In this document: positions 5,703-28,101 of the stretch, piece by piece | How the letters are laid out: each line of letters opens with the position of its first letter | Position numbering within the stretch: the first letter of the stretch is position 1 | Assembly (NCBI GenBank): GCA_017617715.1 | Contig: JAFZVQ010000041.1 | Coordinates: forward strand, 1-43,910 | Reading direction: 5' to 3' | DNA: 43,910 nucleotides | DNA from: Bacteroidales bacterium | GTDB taxonomy: Bacteria; Bacteroidota; Bacteroidia; Bacteroidales; UBA932 | The notes under the pieces: generated by a model | Seen by the model: the letters and a program-made list of their open reading frames with translations, nothing else | What the model was told of the DNA's origin: nothing | Databases searched by the model: none | Translations under genes and position numbers: made by a program

Positions 5703-5800
5703 GGTATAAAGAAATTATTTTTAGGACACAAAAACGCAAACAGACAACGAGCAACAAATATTTTTTGCATCTTGGAGAAAACCACAAAAAATTATCGGAT

Positions 5801-5869
5801 AGTCCTTCTATCTCAACGAAAAACAAGCGGTCGCCTGCGGCGGCCGTTTTTCGTTGAGATAGAAGGACT
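5801..5869. repeat. Perfect 24-bp inverted repeat, candidate element boundary/att site
   Basis: The arms at 5801-5824 and 5846-5869 are exact reverse complements (24 of 24). They enclose a 21-nt GC-rich loop (5825-5845) that can itself fold. The repeat lies just outside the integrase promoter, where attachment sites of tyrosine-recombinase elements are normally found, and no ORF covers it. It could be the recombination site, a bidirectional terminator used as an integration target, or a MITE-like hairpin. Only one copy is in the window. Confidence 0.7.
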
Positions 5870-5901
5870 GACTTCCAATCCCCCTTCAGGTGCGCCTCAG
5901 G

Positions 5902-5933
5902 CTTGCACTATTGCTGGAAAATTGCTACTTTTA
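5902..5933 (+). promoter_or_regulatory. Weak candidate promoter for the leader peptide/lipoprotein pair
   Basis: CTTG at 5902-5905 and TACTTTTA at 5926-5933 (one mismatch to TAnnTTTG) are separated by 20 nt. They lie about 55 nt upstream of the small ORF at 5988. The spacing is right and the boxes are imperfect. Confidence 0.35.
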
Positions 5934-5987: not shown

Positions 5988-6125
5988 ATGAAAGCAAAAG
6001 AGTTATATGTTTCGCCCCGTGTGGGCATTTATGCTGATGCCGTTGAACAGGCATTAGCATTATCTTATAACCAGAGTGAGCGGACCGAAACGCTCTACAT
6101 GATTTCGGAAGAAGAGGACCTTTAA
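5988..6125 (+). CDS. Short leader-type peptide preceding a surface lipoprotein, 45 aa
   Basis: A complete 45-codon ORF lies exactly 11 nt upstream of the lipoprotein gene at 6137. The peptide begins MKAKELYVSP, contains VEQALALSYN in the middle and ends in the acidic tail SEEEDL. It has no signal peptide or membrane segment. The same plan (Lys start, Y-x-S-P, then xE-x-x-L-x-x-S, then an acidic EEE tail) is seen in the peptide at 27861-28007, which stands at the same 11-nt spacing before another large lipoprotein. I recall short peptides of this general pattern being common in Bacteroidales genomes. I know of no assigned function. A translational-coupling or signalling role is inference. Confidence 0.6.
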   Translation: MKAKELYVSPRVGIYADAVEQALALSYNQSERTETLYMISEEEDL

Positions 6126-6136
6126 GGATTACGACG

Positions 6137-8335
6137 ATGAAAACAATTTGGAAATATATAATCGTTGCCCTGGCAGGTCTTTCAATTCTTGCCTGCAACA
6201 AAGAAGTATTGGATCCTTCTGCTGAAGATAACAAGTCTTCCGAGGATGTATATACCTATGTCATTGCCATTGATGAAGGCACCAAGACATTTCTGGACGG
6301 AGACCATATTGCCTGGGAAGATGGTGATTCAGTTGCCTGGTGTGTTGTGGATGGTTCTTCTGTATACCCAGGTTATTCTGAAATCATCCTGTCCAATCCG
6401 CGCATGTTTAAAGTCAAGTGCCCATTCTATATAAACAAAGGCGCTCATATCTATGCCTGCGCACAAAGCTACTCAATCGATTATTCCGGAGGGGCCAGTT
6501 TTTATATTCCGACAGACCAGCATGGCGTCATTCAGAATTCCATGCCGATGGTTTCCCTGCCTATAGAGGTTGCTGCGGGCATCAACAGCAACGTGGAAAC
6601 GCCTGCCGGACTGGCCAGTTTCGTCAATCTTGGTGCGGTAATCAAGTATAACGTGTATACAAGCGACACGGCTTATGGTGCCGAACAGATCCAGAGCATC
6701 ACGTTCGAAGCTACTTCCCCCATTGCCGGTGATTTCGATGTCGATCTTCCCACCGTTTCCGAGACGTCCATTCCTTCTCCTTCCGGCCTCACAGAAAAAT
6801 GCGTCACATCTTTCCTTGATACTCCGGAAGAGGCGGGAATCGACAAAGCCAACGGATTAAAAGTCTACCAGGTAGTGGCTCCCGGAACGCTTTCCGGCAC
6901 GGTAACGGTAACCACGGATGCCGCCGTTTATTCATATTCAGTCTCGAATATTGAATTCGAACGTGCATCCATCAAAACCCTCAACGTGAACCTGGCCAGT
7001 ACAAATGCCACCAGGCGCACACTGGCAGATTTCGAGACTTTGTTGACGGCCTGCGAATGGCAGTTGGTCTCAGTCGCTGCTTCCGATGGCACTGATATTA
7101 CCCAGAATGCCGGAGACGCTTTGACATTCAATGCAGACCACACTCTGTCCCTGACCTGCAACACGCCTGATCAGGTGTACAATTACAATACCGACGAATG
7201 GGTTGATTACCGTTTGGGCTACTCATCATGGGATGATGTGACACGGGAATGGTCTTTATCTGGTTTCTACGGTGCTTATCCCCAACTGAACTTTACCAGT
7301 TATGCCTATCCTCTGGCAATTGTCACCGACAATACTTATGCTCAGGAATACAACATTGTTTCGCTGACTAATGCTACTTTAGTTCTGGATTACCAGTCGC
7401 TTTTCACCATCACCTTCACCAATCCAGCCACGCCCGCCCCGACTACCCCGGAGGCTCTGCTGACGGCGCATGAATGGGAACTCACATCTGTGCTCCGAAA
7501 GGGCCAATATGATACTGAGTTTTATGATTATACTGAAACAGCCGGTAACAAGATGACGCTCAATGCAGACCATAGTTTTGCCTTTGACTGCACTGCCAAT
7601 AATGGCTATGTGTTTGATTATCATAATGGATGGGGCGAGATTCATTCGGATTTAAGTGATTGGGGAGGATTCTGGACAGACCCCAATACAGTTCTTGAAT
7701 GGTCTTACTCAGAGAGTGGCGGAACGAACTACCTCGCTTTCACCGAATGTGCTTATCCTCTGGTGATTATTGACGAGATTATCACATCTCCCCAGTCTTA
7801 CGAGATCGCCGTGCTTACGGACTCTTATCTTGAATTGCATCATCATAACGCGGAACCGAACGCTAACGGCTCCATATTCGACTACATCATCACCTTCACC
7901 ATCCCTGGCGAAAAGAGCCGGGTCGAGGGCTTGCTGACTGCGCACAATTGGGAATTGACCTCTGTGACACGCGACGGGGCTGATGTTACTGAAACCGCCG
8001 GCAACTCAATGACGCTCAACGCGGACCATAGCTTCAGCTTCAACTGCAGTGCTCACAATGGTTTAACGGCATACTATCCCGGGTATCCTAATTGCGTGAC
8101 TGATCCTTCTTATGATCTCGGCTATTCCTGGGCGACTTATGAATGGTCCGTATCTTTCGGTGCTGTCACATCACTGGCCTTCACTCAGTACAGCTATCCT
8201 TTGGTTGTAGTTGACTCGGACTATTCGAACAAGGCTCTGTCTTATGAAATTGCCACGCTGGACGACAGCACCCTTGTACTTGAGTACAATCACAGCACGG
8301 ACGGTCTTTACAGAATTACGTACACGGCAAAATAA
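6137..8335 (+). CDS. Surface lipoprotein with fimbrillin-like N-terminus and three repeat domains, 732 aa
   Basis: A short N-terminal signal ends in the lipobox SILAC (Cys20), so this is an outer-membrane lipoprotein, probably surface exposed. Residues ~35-290 resemble the fimbrillin-like fold common in Bacteroidales (TKTFLDGD, then IAWEDGDSVA). Three repeats of about 140-150 residues follow, starting near residues 296, 437 and 594. Each opens with a variant of LLTAHEWELTSV, then TAGN-MTLNADHSF-F-C, and closes with YPLVVVD-, SYEIATL- and LVLEY. The repeats diverge in sequence but keep this order, consistent with old tandem duplication of a beta-barrel or lipocalin-like unit. Function is unknown. 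Adhesion or glycan binding is plausible. It is preceded by the 45-aa leader peptide. Confidence 0.75.
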   Translation: MKTIWKYIIVALAGLSILACNKEVLDPSAEDNKSSEDVYTYVIAIDEGTKTFLDGDHIAWEDGDSVAWCVVDGSSVYPGYSEIILSNPRMFKVKCPFYINKGAHIYACAQSYSIDYSGGASFYIPTDQHGVIQNSMPMVSLPIEVAAGINSNVETPAGLASFVNLGAVIKYNVYTSDTAYGAEQIQSITFEATSPIAGDFDVDLPTVSETSIPSPSGLTEKCVTSFLDTPEEAGIDKANGLKVYQVVAPGTLSGTVTVTTDAAVYSYSVSNIEFERASIKTLNVNLASTNATRRTLADFETLLTACEWQLVSVAASDGTDITQNAGDALTFNADHTLSLTCNTPDQVYNYNTDEWVDYRLGYSSWDDVTREWSLSGFYGAYPQLNFTSYAYPLAIVTDNTYAQEYNIVSLTNATLVLDYQSLFTITFTNPATPAPTTPEALLTAHEWELTSVLRKGQYDTEFYDYTETAGNKMTLNADHSFAFDCTANNGYVFDYHNGWGEIHSDLSDWGGFWTDPNTVLEWSYSESGGTNYLAFTECAYPLVIIDEIITSPQSYEIAVLTDSYLELHHHNAEPNANGSIFDYIITFTIPGEKSRVEGLLTAHNWELTSVTRDGADVTETAGNSMTLNADHSFSFNCSAHNGLTAYYPGYPNCVTDPSYDLGYSWATYEWSVSFGAVTSLAFTQYSYPLVVVDSDYSNKALSYEIATLDDSTLVLEYNHSTDGLYRITYTAK

Positions 8336-14553: not shown

Positions 14554-16857
14554 ATGAAATCCAAATTGTTAGCCGCCCTGGCGTTTGCCGCAGTCATATT
14601 GTCAGCCTGCAATCGTACACCGGCAGAAGTCTCCGTGACCGGCGTCTCCCTTTCGGACACTGAAATAGAACTGATTGCCGGACAGACACATAATTTGACA
14701 GCTACAGTGGCCCCGGATAATGCCACCAACAAGAAAGTCGAGTGGAAATCAGGAGTGCCGGGCGTAGCCACTGTGGATGACGACGGCCTCGTGATCGCGC
14801 TCGCAATGGGAGCGTCCACCATCACCGTAACCACCGTGGACGGCGGTTTCAAGGCGAGCTGCGCCGTCATCGTGAAGAAAAGGGTCATCCCGGTAGAATC
14901 TGTATCCCTCAATCATAGTGAATTCGCAATGGACGAAGGCGGCGACCTGTACCTCTCCGCCTCGGTTCTTCCAAAGGACGCCACGGATCCTTCCGTCATC
15001 TGGACGGCCAGCCCGGAAAGCGTGCTCTCGGTTAATGAATCCGGCAAGGTTCACGCAGAAGGCCCGGGAGAAGGCGACGTGACCGTGACCACCGTGGACG
15101 GCGGTTTCAAGGCAAGCTGCCACATCACTGTCAAAGCCAAGACAGTCAACGCTGAAAGCGTGACGCTGAGCAAAGACAAACTGGAGCTGACGGTCGGCGA
15201 GACCGCGACTCTCACAGCCACCGTGCTGCCGGAAAACACCACCGACAAAACAATCGACTGGAGGAGCGCCGACACTTCGATTGCGACTGTCGACCAGAAC
15301 GGAACGGTCACGGCAGTGGCCCCGGGTAAGGTCAACATCAGGGCTGTCTGCGGCGCCAAGGAAGCTATATGCGAAGTCTCGGTCAAGGCGATTCAGGCCA
15401 CGGGCTTGACAGTCGAGCCTCAAACCGCAACCCTGATGGAAGGGGAAACCATACAGCTCAAGGCAACTGTGTACCCTGCATCCGCAGACCAGACGGTCGA
15501 ATGGGCGTCAAATGACACCAAAGTGGCGAAGGTCGATGCCAACGGCCTTGTGACCGCAACCGGAGCGGGCAAGACACAAATCTACGCCCGGTCCAAGGCA
15601 TTCAATAATGTCAAGTCCTATTGTGAACTGACCGTCAACCAGGACACGTCTCTCAAGGGAATCGCGCTGAGCTCCACCATAATGACACTCAAGGCCGGAG
15701 AGTCCCGTACACTGACCGTAACATTCACCCCTTCCTATGCCGCCAACAAGAATCTCAAATGGTCATCCAGCAACAATGCCGTAGCGGCGGTAAGCCAGGA
15801 AGGCATGGTCATGGGTATGTCCGAAGGGGAGGCCACCATTACCGCCACGTCCGAGGACGGCGGCCACACCGCAAGCTGCAAGGTGACGGTGTCCGGAAGC
15901 TCCGGGCCGATCGTTTACTACTGGCATAATTCAGTTTGTTACATGAATGGTGCCCCCGACCCCCGCAATGGAGCCTTCAACGCCGACAAGTTCACTGCAT
16001 TGGCCGAGTGGACCAAAGGCGCCGACTGTGTGGGGAAGACCTTATATACGTTAGAGTATTATAAAGACCACGGCGTCACATGCCTGTATTTGTGCAAGGA
16101 CAGGGAACCCGTCAGGAAACTGCCCGATGCTATCAAGAATAGTCCGGTAAGCGGTTTCTGTGCTATGGAAAACTATTATGCACTGCTTTTAAAGAACGGC
16201 AAATGGGACTACTCCGTATGGAAGGGCAAGTATGGTGAAGATCCGGTAGAAGTCCGAATCACCGGCACTTTCAAGGAATTTGACCATCCCAAAATTGCGG
16301 CTTTGAATGACGGCCGGATAATTGTGGCCGTCCGGATAACGGATTCTTTCAACGACAGATTCCTGGCCAAGTACGTAATTAACAATAACAGTAATTCAGC
16401 CGATGAGTACATCATCCACCCTCATTGGAGTATGTACCCGGCCATTGCTGTATCAGAAAGCGGAGATGATTATATATTCGGAGTTGATATAGACTCTGAT
16501 GATGTGAATTATTACAAGGGCTACCTGTACAAGAATGGAGTATTTGTTTCATCTTACGATAAAGTGATATACGACTGCAACGGGGCAGTGGCCTTTCATA
16601 GCGGTGATGTTTATACGGCTGTACATGATCAGAAACAGGTGCAAACCAGGATCCGCAAAGGCGACAGCGTAATCTATACCATTTTCGACAAAAGGTACGT
16701 TTCGCCTGAAAGCAATCGTCCTATGTACATTACAAAGTCCGGAGATCTATATCTGGCGGGGTCATATACAAGCGAGGGAAGCGCCCTGTTTTTGAACGGG
16801 GAACTGTTGTATTCCGGTGACTACCGGGATTTTGAGATTTATTGTATAGCAGAATAG
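14554..16857 (+). CDS. Lipoprotein with five Big2 Ig-like domains and a propeller-like C-terminus, 767 aa
   Basis: The signal peptide ends at lipobox LSAC (Cys19). Five bacterial Ig-like (Big2) domains of ~82-87 residues follow, from about 27 to 446. Each has the hallmark order V--V-L----EL--GET--L-ATV-P-NAT-K-V-W-SS---VATVD-DG-V-A---G---ITV-T-DGGF-ASC-VTV. The remaining ~320 residues contain recurring blade-like patterns (V-YW-NSV-YMNG, LYLCKDREPVRKL, SGDVYTAVH, SGDLYLAGSY), suggesting a beta-propeller. It is anchored to the outer membrane and probably surface exposed, with adhesion or glycan binding as an inference. Its closest relative in the window is the gene at 33811, which has the same domain order throughout. 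Domains 1 and 2 share a 26-nt identical DNA segment. Confidence 0.85.
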   Translation: MKSKLLAALAFAAVILSACNRTPAEVSVTGVSLSDTEIELIAGQTHNLTATVAPDNATNKKVEWKSGVPGVATVDDDGLVIALAMGASTITVTTVDGGFKASCAVIVKKRVIPVESVSLNHSEFAMDEGGDLYLSASVLPKDATDPSVIWTASPESVLSVNESGKVHAEGPGEGDVTVTTVDGGFKASCHITVKAKTVNAESVTLSKDKLELTVGETATLTATVLPENTTDKTIDWRSADTSIATVDQNGTVTAVAPGKVNIRAVCGAKEAICEVSVKAIQATGLTVEPQTATLMEGETIQLKATVYPASADQTVEWASNDTKVAKVDANGLVTATGAGKTQIYARSKAFNNVKSYCELTVNQDTSLKGIALSSTIMTLKAGESRTLTVTFTPSYAANKNLKWSSSNNAVAAVSQEGMVMGMSEGEATITATSEDGGHTASCKVTVSGSSGPIVYYWHNSVCYMNGAPDPRNGAFNADKFTALAEWTKGADCVGKTLYTLEYYKDHGVTCLYLCKDREPVRKLPDAIKNSPVSGFCAMENYYALLLKNGKWDYSVWKGKYGEDPVEVRITGTFKEFDHPKIAALNDGRIIVAVRITDSFNDRFLAKYVINNNSNSADEYIIHPHWSMYPAIAVSESGDDYIFGVDIDSDDVNYYKGYLYKNGVFVSSYDKVIYDCNGAVAFHSGDVYTAVHDQKQVQTRIRKGDSVIYTIFDKRYVSPESNRPMYITKSGDLYLAGSYTSEGSALFLNGELLYSGDYRDFEIYCIAE

Positions 16858-24552: not shown

Positions 24553-27500
24553 TTAATTGATTACAACGTTCGTGTAAGTAAGAGCCGGATCGGTAACTTC
24601 TTGTCTGTGGGTCACTACGTCTCCAATCAGATCGGCATCCACAGGAGGATTCGACAAAGCTACAGGAGTGCCATTGATATTGGCGGAAGAGAGAATTGTG
24701 AGAGGCTTGCCGGCTGCGCCAAGAGTATAGTAGGCGGCCATCTCTGTTCCATCGTCTTCAAAGCCTCCGAAAAGGATACCAGCAGTTATACCGCTGCCCG
24801 AAATTGAGCCTCCTAAGGTGAAATCCTTTATGGTGTTTTCGCGGTTGGCACGGCCAAAGACCAGACCGGAGAAGAAGTCCCCCTGAGTGTTAGTCGCCGT
24901 AATATTGCCGGAGAAATAACCTCCAGTAATGGATGCACTGCCGTAAGCGGCAAAACCAGCGACTTCTGTGCCATCAGCGGCTCCGTTAACAGTGATGTCA
25001 CCGGTATTAAAGCAATCGGTGAAAGAGCCGAAGAGCGCTCCGTTAATGGCACCGACACGGACCTTGGCAGGAGCATTGACAGTGATATTACCGCTATTGG
25101 AGCACCTTGTCAGGTCGTTTCCGGAACTGGAATACACTCCCTGAACTCCTCCAATATAACTGTAAGCACCCGTATAAGTAAAGTTGGATACATCAATACT
25201 GCCGGAATTAGAGCAATCTGTAAGATCGGAATCAGTTTCCATGGATCTGGCAAGTACGCCACCGACATACATTATGCTTGGCATATTGCACCCGTCAATT
25301 GAAATAGACTTGTCATTGCTGCATCCGGTCATTTTGTTTGAATATCTGAACGCTCCAACAACGCCGCCTATTGCAGACGCATCTGAATCCTTGTCCAGTT
25401 TGACAGTGATTTCCCCATGATTTTGACAGTTAGATACTGTTGCCGTATTTGCATCAGCATAAATATAACCAATAACACCCGAAATGAAATTGACGTATTT
25501 CACTCCATTAATGTTCTTTCTTGTGACCGACAGATCGGCGTAATTTGTACAATCGGAAGCCGGACCATAACACATACCGACAAGGGCCCCCAGTCTGGTA
25601 GTAGCTGCCAAGTCATATACAGTTATTGAAGAACCTGTCTGGGCAGAGCACTCGGAGATTGAGCCTCCTGCACCTAAATATCCGACTATTCCTCCAAAAT
25701 TCAAAGTTGAACTTGCCTGATTGGTGGTCAAAGTTGTGGCATCAAATGAAAGTGTAATCGTGGCTCCCAGATTGCAATTCTCAACGGGTTTGGTAGTCTG
25801 ACCGACAATACCACCTATATGGGAAGTTTTGGAAGCATCTGCAATATTCATCGTAGGGGCGAGATTGTCACAGTCGACGAGTCTGGCAAGCGTATAACCA
25901 ACGATTCCTCCAAAAGTATGACCGGATCCGGCAGTCGCATCAATAGTCGTGTTGATTGTAATGGCGCCGTAATTGTCGCAGTTTTGCACAAGGGTGGTGT
26001 TGTCTCCGACCACTCCGAAACATCCTCCGCAATTAGGGACTTTTGTTCCAAAAGACCCGGTTGCAAACTCCGAATCGGTACCTCCGTTTGAGAAATCACC
26101 TGTAAGACTCACCGCTCCGCGATTTATGCAGTCCTTTGCAGTAATTGCGGCAGTGCCGCCCAGGCCACCGGCAATTCCGCCGACAGAAGGACGGGCATTA
26201 GCCACGGTCATTCTGCTGGTTAATGATACTTCTCCTTCATTGGTGCAAGAATCAAGTGCACACTCACCGACGCCGATGATGCCGCCTAAGTTAAAATATC
26301 CACCGGTCGCGCCATTCCAGTTAGCAGAGATTTTTCCGCTGTTGTGGCAGCTCAAGATGGTACCGTAGTTCTTTGTGTACCCGCTCTTTTTAGAAGAAGA
26401 GCCAGCATTCAATCCAGTACAGCCAACTATGCCACCGATATATACGTTCCTTAAAACTTTACCAGTTCCTTCTTCCAAGCCGTTAACGGTGATGTTGCCA
26501 TGGTTTGTACAGTCCTTTACTCGCACATTGGTGGACGGGGCGATGAAGACACCTACTACACCGGCTACATACTGGGTTTTTTTCACGGATCCCATGACGA
26601 AATCAGTGTTGATAGCACCATAATTATGGCAATCTTCGACGCGTGAGGAATTTACTTCCATCCTGCCGACTATTCCGGCAAGGGAGCGCTGATCGGTGAG
26701 CGTACCGTTAGCCGTAATAGGAGCTCTGTTTGTCACACCTGAGACTGTGCCTCCGGAAAGAAGTTTAGTTACAGGACCGAAATTGCCACTCATAGGCACA
26801 GACTCAAAAGCACAGGAAGCGTCAATTGTGAAGTTCTTGACTGTTCCGGTAACGGTAGCAAACATGGAGACGCCCCCATTGCTCGTCCAGTGGCTGATGG
26901 TGTGGTGCTGGCCGTCGAAGAGGTTGGCGAAGGAGGCGCGGGTGGTGACGGTCTGGCTGCTGAGGTCGAGGTCGTTTACCACGTAGGCGTCTTTGGCGGT
27001 GTCGTCGTCGAGGAAGGCGACGAGTTCGGCGCCGTTCTCGATGACGCAGACTTCAGCGCCCTTGTCGGTGGCGCCGAGGGCGCCGAGCTTGCGGCCCTGG
27101 CCGGGAGTGCTGAGGTCGAGGTCGGCGGTGCCGGAGACGAAGCGTCCGGTGCCGGCGGTGATCTGGGATGCGGTCCTGGTGAATACGCGGATGCCGTGGT
27201 ACACTGCAGGCTTGACTGCGATCCAGTAGCCGGAACCGGCAGATACGTTGGTGGGGTCGCAGGTCACGGATGCGGAGGCGCCGGTCATGGTGGCGGTGGC
27301 GTCATCGTTGGTGTGGATGATCACACGTGCGACGTCGTTGCCGGCGTTGACCCTGAGGAAACTGACGGCGCTTGTGAAGTTGAAGTCGGCGCCGTTGTCG
27401 GAGGTGGCGGTGGCCACGAGGGTTGCCGGGTCGATGCTCTTGCCGGCCGGAATGGTCTGGACGGCGGGAATTGTGTATTCATCGGCCGAAGCGCCCGCTG

Positions 27501-27849
27501 CGGAAGCCGGGAATATGCCCTTCACGGGCACGAAACCGGAAGGTACCGGGCCGGTGAACGTGGCAACGTCGGTGTCGGCGCCGCCCGTGAGGCCGAGAAC
27601 TTCTTTATTGTTGCTGGCGTCATAGACGGCAAGCTGGTCGCCGTCGGCCCATTTCCAGGTGTAGCCGTCGGCATCGTCGATATAGGCTTTGGTGCCGTCG
27701 AACCTGGCGGTGATGGTAAGGGTCACCATCTCAGTGACTGCCTGCTCGCCGGGGTTGTCGGCGGGGGTGTCGGGAAGGATTTCAGAAGGCGTGCATGAAA
27801 CGAGCACGGCTGCGCAGAATGCTGCGAAAATCAGAAGATGCTTTTTCAT
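24553..27849 (-). CDS. Large surface lipoprotein: fimbrillin-like N-terminus plus beta-helix repeats, 1098 aa
   Basis: The lipobox is LVSC (Cys19). Residues ~40-270 form a fimbrillin-like domain (GTKAYIDDADGYTWKWADGDQLAVYD, SGYWIAVKPAVYHGI). From about 285 to 1050 there are some fifteen to twenty irregular repeats of 35-50 residues with the pattern GGIVG------ -DC-N-G-I-----, for example VAGVVG, VGGIAGGLGG, FGGIVGYLGAGG, IGGVVGAF and IGGVQGVY. This is typical of a right-handed parallel beta-helix related to GLUG-type repeats. Such proteins act as adhesins or polysaccharide-binding surface proteins, but the ligand is unknown. It is preceded at 11 nt by a 48-aa leader-type peptide and followed by a strong terminator. 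Confidence 0.85.
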   Translation of the reverse strand: MKKHLLIFAAFCAAVLVSCTPSEILPDTPADNPGEQAVTEMVTLTITARFDGTKAYIDDADGYTWKWADGDQLAVYDASNNKEVLGLTGGADTDVATFTGPVPSGFVPVKGIFPASAAGASADEYTIPAVQTIPAGKSIDPATLVATATSDNGADFNFTSAVSFLRVNAGNDVARVIIHTNDDATATMTGASASVTCDPTNVSAGSGYWIAVKPAVYHGIRVFTRTASQITAGTGRFVSGTADLDLSTPGQGRKLGALGATDKGAEVCVIENGAELVAFLDDDTAKDAYVVNDLDLSSQTVTTRASFANLFDGQHHTISHWTSNGGVSMFATVTGTVKNFTIDASCAFESVPMSGNFGPVTKLLSGGTVSGVTNRAPITANGTLTDQRSLAGIVGRMEVNSSRVEDCHNYGAINTDFVMGSVKKTQYVAGVVGVFIAPSTNVRVKDCTNHGNITVNGLEEGTGKVLRNVYIGGIVGCTGLNAGSSSKKSGYTKNYGTILSCHNSGKISANWNGATGGYFNLGGIIGVGECALDSCTNEGEVSLTSRMTVANARPSVGGIAGGLGGTAAITAKDCINRGAVSLTGDFSNGGTDSEFATGSFGTKVPNCGGCFGVVGDNTTLVQNCDNYGAITINTTIDATAGSGHTFGGIVGYTLARLVDCDNLAPTMNIADASKTSHIGGIVGQTTKPVENCNLGATITLSFDATTLTTNQASSTLNFGGIVGYLGAGGSISECSAQTGSSITVYDLAATTRLGALVGMCYGPASDCTNYADLSVTRKNINGVKYVNFISGVIGYIYADANTATVSNCQNHGEITVKLDKDSDASAIGGVVGAFRYSNKMTGCSNDKSISIDGCNMPSIMYVGGVLARSMETDSDLTDCSNSGSIDVSNFTYTGAYSYIGGVQGVYSSSGNDLTRCSNSGNITVNAPAKVRVGAINGALFGSFTDCFNTGDITVNGAADGTEVAGFAAYGSASITGGYFSGNITATNTQGDFFSGLVFGRANRENTIKDFTLGGSISGSGITAGILFGGFEDDGTEMAAYYTLGAAGKPLTILSSANINGTPVALSNPPVDADLIGDVVTHRQEVTDPALTYTNVVIN

Positions 27850-27860
27850 AAGTCCGTCGT

Positions 27861-28007
27861 TTAGCTAAGTGAATATTCTTCTTCATTTTCGTCAAAGATG
27901 ACGTTCGGGGCCGAATTGGGCCCTGAGGTACAGAGGATCGCTTCCAGAGGGAAGCCCATGATCCTACACCACGGGGATGCGTAGTCTAGTGTGCTTAAAT
28001 GCTTCAT
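27861..28007 (-). CDS. Short leader-type peptide preceding the 1098-aa lipoprotein, 48 aa
   Basis: The ORF starts at MKHLSTLDYASP (28007), after an AT-rich leader (TAATAACGTATAAATATAACTTATTA), and stops 11 nt before the lipoprotein ATG. The peptide shares a plan with the 45-aa peptide at 5988: a basic start, Y-x-S-P, ten or so residues, [VL]E-x-[AI]-L-[AC]-[LT]-S (LEAILCTS here), and an acidic EEE tail (DENEEEYSLS). There is no signal peptide. I infer translational coupling or a peptide partner of the lipoprotein. The frame open up to 28094 lies over the promoter and is not used. Confidence 0.6.
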   Translation of the reverse strand: MKHLSTLDYASPWCRIMGFPLEAILCTSGPNSAPNVIFDENEEEYSLS

Positions 28008-28093: not shown

Positions 28094-28101
28094 CAAAGAT
28101 A
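28094..28101 (-). promoter_or_regulatory. -7 box for the leader peptide/1098-aa lipoprotein operon
   Basis: TATCTTTG on the minus strand. The transcript would carry a ~75-nt untranslated leader containing a CCGGC-GTGT-GCCGG hairpin (around 28049-28062) before the 48-aa ORF. Confidence 0.55.

Follow-up and report, generated by a model that had tools for sequence, protein, structure and literature searches.

Two short genes lie directly ahead of genes for large surface lipoproteins in the DNA stretch analysed here (43,910 nt, hereafter the window), which is contig C84 of a Bacteroidales draft genome (G000; 2.32 Mb, 86 contigs, 76.6% complete). Both loci are arranged exactly as an earlier sequence-only reading had placed them, with a short ORF ending 11 nt ahead of the lipoprotein gene (Table 1). 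In peptide 1 the conserved N-terminal part runs to the residues ALALS and is followed by an acidic tail. It matches profile A1, made of 12 peptides, with E 3.1e-12 and profile A2, made of 62 members from the genus, with E 2.0e-5, peptide 1 being included in both; peptide 2 matches A1, in which it is likewise included, with E 1.2e-19. The two lipoproteins share an N-terminal domain, as had been proposed: an iterated domain profile, which was started from the lipoprotein of peptide 2 and iterated over the partner set with both window lipoproteins included, matches them at 5e-55 and 6e-31. The 1098-aa lipoprotein also gives a GLUG match of 17.4 bits (below the cut-off of 20.5) and a match to the Mfa1 family NF038041 with E 0.002, far under the cut-off.

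Table 1. Features of the two peptide-lipoprotein pairs of the window
Feature	Position	Strand	Description
Weak promoter-like box TACTTTTA	5926..5933	+	62 nt upstream of peptide 1; 1 mismatch to TAnnTTTG
Peptide 1	5988..6125	+	45 aa, MKAKELYVSP...EEEDL; ATG at 5988, stop at 6125
Intergenic gap, peptide 1 / lipoprotein	6126..6136	+	11 nt; length not conserved in the family
732-aa lipoprotein	6137..8335	+	Mfa/fimbrillin-like N-terminal domain (TKT..W..GD pattern), common to both partners
1098-aa lipoprotein	24553..27849	-	N-terminal domain as in the 732-aa lipoprotein; weak GLUG-motif match further along
Intergenic gap, peptide 2 / lipoprotein	27850..27860	-	11 nt
Peptide 2	27861..28007	-	48 aa, MKHLSTLDYASP...AILCTS + acidic tail
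Promoter-like box TATCTTTG	28094..28101	-	94 nt upstream of peptide 2

Two other features of the window were recorded. A long hairpin with a stem of ~32 bp and a 4-nt bulge lies upstream of peptide 1, at 5800-5870 (MFE -52.1 kcal/mol, z -10.8), and is perhaps a two-way terminator or the remnant of a small mobile element. The 767-aa lipoprotein encoded at 14554-16857 carries repeated segments that look Ig-like by eye; no family peptide lies ahead of it, nor ahead of six further lipoprotein-like genes of the window.

Spacing, background of short ORFs and promoter boxes

The identical 11-nt spacing at the two loci had been taken as a sign of a functional unit. Over 85 distinct peptide-lipoprotein pairs the gap ranges from -14 to 43 nt, with a median of 15; it is 11 nt in four pairs, two of which are those of the window, and 8-15 nt in 36. 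Given this range, the shared spacing is a coincidence.

The background of short ORFs was counted in a congener (G032), picked for having the most profile matches; 400 kb of its contig C16 were read from the first base, not around the matches. An ATG ORF of 30-70 aa is found near the start of 51 of 80 lipoprotein-like genes vs 83 of 183 others ("near" meaning that the ORF ends between 48 nt before and 15 nt after the gene start), these and the other counts of lipoprotein-like genes being approximate because a simple longest-ORF caller and a crude lipoprotein pattern were used. The background is thus too high for a short ORF near a gene start to be informative by itself, and "any short ORF just upstream" was dropped as a criterion. 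When the family motif is required, a peptide precedes 9 of 80 lipoprotein-like genes vs 0 of 184 others in the same 400 kb (Fisher 1.6e-5), and the window gives 2 of 9 vs 0 of 32 (p 0.04), leaving out of the count a 27-aa ORF that matched the profile and adjoined no gene start. The excess over chance lies in the family motif; the mere presence of an ORF and the 11-nt spacing are uninformative.

In 22 of 84 pairs the 150 nt ahead of the peptide contain the motif TAnnTTTG, which we take to be the Bacteroidetes -7 promoter box. The interval from the peptide start to the lipoprotein start contains it in 2/84, compared with 0/84 for a control stretch inside the lipoprotein gene. Since the boxes lie upstream of the peptide and rarely between the two starts, the peptide and lipoprotein genes probably form one transcript.

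A peptide family with a constant N-terminal part and a variable tail

The peptide belongs to a large family in Bacteroidales and relatives. Peptide 2 as a single query gave weak matches in relatives; with strand considered, several of the 35 loci from this search are short ORFs just ahead of lipoproteins and many are chance matches. Of 101 genus genomes, 91 contain a match to profile A1 at E<=1 and 71 at E<=0.01; the genome of the window itself contains 29 matches to A2 at E<=0.1. The family consensus consists of Y-x(1,2)-P, a strand-like stretch, [LIF][CA]xS and a variable acidic tail. All A2 members share the initial Met, the Tyr and the Pro, and the Ser of CxS reaches a conservation of 90% or more. 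The recurring unit, the fimbrillin-like lipoprotein behind the peptide, the acidic tail and a YxSP-based profile, all put forward from the two window copies, were each upheld.

The loci read yielded 107 distinct peptides that reach E<=0.01 and contain Y-x(1,2)-P, and family-wide counts were made on this set. The loci were chosen by peptide score, around the kinase described below or as whole stretches, and never by lipoprotein. The peptide is under purifying selection at the amino-acid level. Pooled pN/pS is 0.39 over 34 pairs whose proteins are at least 50% identical; this threshold in itself reduces pN. The closest pair has pS 0.60 and pN 0.09. Motif, conservation and pN/pS support the earlier suggestion that the peptide itself is a functional product. 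Together with the domain-specific pairing given below, they also speak against functionless chance ORFs, an explanation that was already disfavoured and is scarcely credible even with the many short ORFs that end near the starts of non-lipoprotein genes.

A leader and a tail can be distinguished in 100 of the 107 peptides. Leaders are at least 70% identical in 12 pairs, and in 9 of these the tails are less than 40% identical; the best leader-sharing pairs are near-identical up to CxS and have wholly different tails. The tails are rich in D, E, G and N, contain Cys in 1/100 and carry an aromatic residue within the last eight positions in 95/100. A constant N-terminal part joined to a variable tail is the usual look of leader and core, and the modularity seen in 9 of the 12 pairs suggests a genetically encoded precursor of the RiPP type.

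Searches against known families gave little. A Pfam/NCBIfam scan of the 62 A2 members at E<=1 yielded no more than isolated hits of one member each to unrelated families (9 and 3), and none of the 62 matches the known Bacteroidales RiPP precursor models PF14406, TIGR04149 and TIGR04139. The peptide profile has no match at E<=1 among solved structures, and an AlphaFold model of the peptide (pLDDT 51.0) is too poor for a fold search. A literature search of titles and abstract openings found no description of the peptide family or of the module described below, which does not establish absence from print. A sub-family with the motif DTEIS[LI]VM and proline-rich or basic tails was noted at loci L256-L258 (G094, G185); no lipoprotein was found directly behind it in L257 and L258.

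Partner lipoproteins and gene order

A lipoprotein start lies within -45 to +130 nt of 85 of the 107 peptides. Of the other 22, several belong to the module or adjoin other secreted genes. An N-domain profile, made with the signal peptide removed, matches 79 of 84 partners. The domain may be called Mfa/fimbrillin-like from weak Pfam matches: PF13149 (Mfa-like fimbrillin) is matched at E<=0.01 by 4 of 40 partner N-domains, the best at 2.4e-6, and by none of the other 36. The N-domain profile has no match at E<=1 to solved structures, and an AlphaFold model of the domain (pLDDT 43.5) is too poor for fold comparison. In the 400 kb of C16, the peptide lies ahead of 9 of 15 domain-bearing lipoproteins vs none of 65 lipoprotein-like genes without the domain (p 2.2e-8), by a profile that leans towards paired genes because it was trained on peptide partners, including those of C16, and that still found six unpaired domain lipoproteins. 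The corresponding counts in the window are 2/2 vs 0/7 (p 0.03).

Gene order differs in other genomes. In G211, seven of eight peptides examined lie directly after a large gene on the same strand, at gaps of -6 to 44 nt, and the eighth precedes a large gene. Six of those seven large proteins end in a similar motif, which we take to be a T9SS-like sorting tail; the seventh is without it, and the one protein scanned against Pfam gave no match. A peptide ahead of a lipoprotein is present in G211 as well, at L107. At L139-L142 of this genome the peptides form a sub-family with tails that end like R-x-S-x-W-x-D-x-E, mostly just after large genes whose products have a C-terminal motif in common. In G078 the gene ahead of one peptide encodes a PKD-domain protein whose Por_Secre_tail match is weak (E 9.6e-4) and stays under the cut-off. 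Repeated copies also occur: at L146 (11408-11698, G000 contig C15) two different peptides stand in tandem ahead of one fimbrillin-like lipoprotein, and at L098 (G012 contig C74) three similar peptides (71-80% identical) each precede a different lipoprotein, one without the shared domain.

This gene order bears on two explanations that give the peptide a role close to its neighbour. As a cis-acting leader ORF, the peptide would couple or attenuate translation of the lipoprotein by being translated itself. The close spacing, the probable shared transcript and the position upstream of the gene to be regulated, found in the window and for 85/107 peptides, agree with this. A coupled uORF, one of the functions first suggested, nevertheless cannot serve as a general explanation, since homologues come after secreted genes, as in G211 and G078, or lie within the PqqD/kinase/peptidase operon. 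The variable gap, the purifying selection on amino acids and the tandem peptides of L146 weigh against it as well, and a cis leader is considered quite improbable. The other explanation is that each peptide is a small chaperone or targeting adaptor in the cytosol, dedicated to binding its nascent surface protein and aiding the export or folding of that protein; it agrees with the domain-specific pairing, with the peptides that precede a lipoprotein and with those adjoining large genes in G211. It is opposed by peptides in PqqD/HprK operons that have no surface gene directly beside them, by the L098 peptide whose lipoprotein lacks the domain and by tails that vary freely behind a constant N-terminal part, and it is regarded as unlikely.

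A PqqD/kinase/peptidase/ABC module and the proposed pathway

Two modules with the gene order kinase-peptidase-PqqD-ABC are present in the window's genome, on contigs C27 and C64, in trans to the window. Their kinases (HprK) are 44-49% identical to the HprK of G078 over the matched part. The C64 PqqD, one of two copies in this genome, scores 54.7 bits against PF05402, above the cut-off of 23.4, and the ABC protein of C27 passes both PF00664 and PF00005. The S24/S26-type, signal-peptidase-like protein remains below curated cut-offs (18.9 bits to Peptidase_S24 and 27.8 bits to archaeal signal peptidase), as does the kinase (ScmC 23.3 bits, PEPCK_ATP 20.6 bits). The kinase is found in 82 of 101 genus genomes, and the same gene order, with ABC genes called by profile, in 24 of 33 genus loci read.

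Peptides are part of such modules in several genomes. With all genes on the same strand, the order is PqqD-peptide-HprK-S26-ABC in G190 and peptide-HprK-S26-PqqD-nucleotidyltransferase-like-ABC in G078, whose peptides are in the search profile, and PqqD-peptide-HprK-S26 in G229, peptide-PqqD-HprK-S26 in G506 and peptide-HprK-S26 in G177, whose peptides are outside it; nucleotidyltransferase-like is the label we presume for the extra protein of G078. Module, peptide and lipoprotein come together at one locus in G213 (peptide-lipoprotein-ABC-S26-PqqD-(246 aa)-HprK) and, within the window's genus, in G134 (HprK-S26-PqqD-peptide-lipoprotein, gap 13). Among 1847 small ORFs scanned in the surroundings of 62 kinase loci, with a few genomes represented twice, same-strand peptides were recovered at 1.8e-9 in G078, 8e-6 in G506, 1e-5 in G134, 1.7e-4 in G229 and 0.024 in G177, the last four not being part of the profile used. 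A putative recognition protein is linked to the precursor: PqqD adjoins the peptide in G190, G229, G506 and G134, and is in the same operon in G078 and G213.

Co-occurrence across the order points the same way, with p values that take no account of phylogeny. The kinase is present at E<=1e-15 in 15 of 198 order genomes. It is found in 6/6 genomes with at least two peptide matches to the broader profile A5 (E<=0.01) vs 9/192 others (p 6.5e-8), A5 containing members from several of the peptide-positive order genomes. With at least one match at E<=0.05 the counts are 8/14 vs 7/184 (p 3e-7), and with convincing matches by eye to the genus-only profile A2 they are 7/8 vs 8/190; G190 was scored kinase-negative in the co-occurrence count, though its module was later read.

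The linkage is firm in some lineages but indirect for the window, because peptides occur in genomes lacking a kinase match, because there is no enrichment near modules and because the genus-wide association is not seen among the more complete genomes. G032 has 29 peptide matches at E<=1 and no HprK match at E<=0.001 even with a wider profile, and the kinase may be missing from this 91% complete draft; G097, with a paired peptide and domain lipoprotein, and G266, with a peptide-like frame overlapping a lipoprotein start, also have no HprK match. No peptide was found near the modules in 34 kb read of the window's own genome, and the surroundings of genus modules (523 kb) hold four peptides at 3 of 32 loci, about the density elsewhere. 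At 28 non-genus HprK loci, a recognisable peptide lies within 1.5 kb in 4 and none in 24. The genus-wide association of peptide and HprK (78:13 vs 4:6, p 0.003 at the loose E<=1) is not seen among genomes at least 90% complete (p 0.37).

PqqA/PqqD and the lasso B1 systems are RiPPs with a stand-alone PqqD-type recognition protein. Like them, the present system combines a short precursor of constant N-terminal part and variable tail with a PqqD-family protein and an ABC exporter. It differs from them in that motif scans (PP-loop cyclase in 3 of 24 regions, all distant; CxxxCxxC in 2 of 24, outside the module) and gene lists read by eye showed no RiPP ring-forming enzyme of a known type in the module, and in that its precursors are for the most part dispersed outside the module and encoded in pairs with a surface lipoprotein. 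A parallel to the SynChlorMet cassette (ScmC, PqqD-like ScmD) lies in the kinase, whose best NCBIfam match is ScmC (E 3.4e-5, 23.3 bits against a cut-off of 125); the radical SAM enzymes that this cassette carries were not seen in the module. The GG-leader RiPPs of Bacteroidales share the hosts and the association of precursors with an exporter, in their case peptidase-containing ABC transporters (PMC10352776), but the peptide consensus is without a double-Gly motif and no A2 member matches a GG-leader precursor model.

Another related system is that of the lasso accessory genes, in which, according to PMC8498205, an HPr-kinase homologue phosphorylates the C-terminal Ser of the precursor (paeninodin, pseudomycoidin) and a nucleotidyltransferase also occurs. 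A lasso-peptide-type pathway proper would agree with this set of genes, since lasso clusters are known to carry HPr kinase, PqqD and nucleotidyltransferase as accessory genes (PMC8498205, PMC7533575), and the module has the PqqD-type B1 counterpart together with an HPr kinase homologue, an optional tailoring gene. The asparagine-synthetase-type cyclase was not found in the module in a scan of 24 module regions for SGGxDSS-like motifs, of which three matches lie kilobases from the module on the opposite strand, and an S24/S26-type peptidase takes the place of the lasso transglutaminase-like protease; such a pathway is considered highly improbable.

The reading we favour, with moderate confidence, is that the peptides are putative RiPP-like precursors, matured in trans and co-transcribed with a surface lipoprotein. 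Peptide and lipoprotein would be made from one transcript, and PqqD would bind the N-terminal part of the peptide as a leader. The kinase would then modify the peptide, in some lineages with the nucleotidyltransferase-like protein; the modification may be of phosphate or nucleotide type, by analogy with the HPr kinase homologue acting on a lasso precursor (PMC8498205). The S24/S26-type peptidase would cut near the CxS motif and the ABC protein would export the tail. In the window's genome, the C27 and C64 modules would serve in trans the dispersed precursors represented by the 29 profile matches. The most speculative step is that the exported tail might bind to, or be displayed with, the co-encoded surface protein. 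Among the functions first suggested, a secreted signal peptide comes closest to this precursor reading; no hydrophobic Sec-type signal was seen in the peptide by eye, and the link to secretion would be a RiPP-like maturation and export module.

A broader version, less probable than not, is a genome-wide system in which precursors encoded at many dispersed sites would be matured by one or two central PqqD/kinase/peptidase/ABC modules, each precursor being co-expressed with its own fimbrillin-like lipoprotein or secreted protein. The resulting modified peptides, private to such surface proteins, might be displayed, serve as released signals or be required for assembly. The genes concerned are tiny, numerous per genome in some gut and rumen Bacteroidales and mostly beside a large surface-protein gene. 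If the proposal is true, they would represent an unrecognised route to surface or secreted peptides in these bacteria, tying peptide modification and export to adhesin-like surface lipoproteins, and small genes without a Pfam/NCBIfam model and an orphan PqqD/HprK/S24-S26/ABC module would explain each other. A search with a pair of peptides from congeners led to two named loci, 100% and 57% identical to the first of that pair, in "Bacteroidales bacterium" MAGs from yak and water-buffalo omasum.
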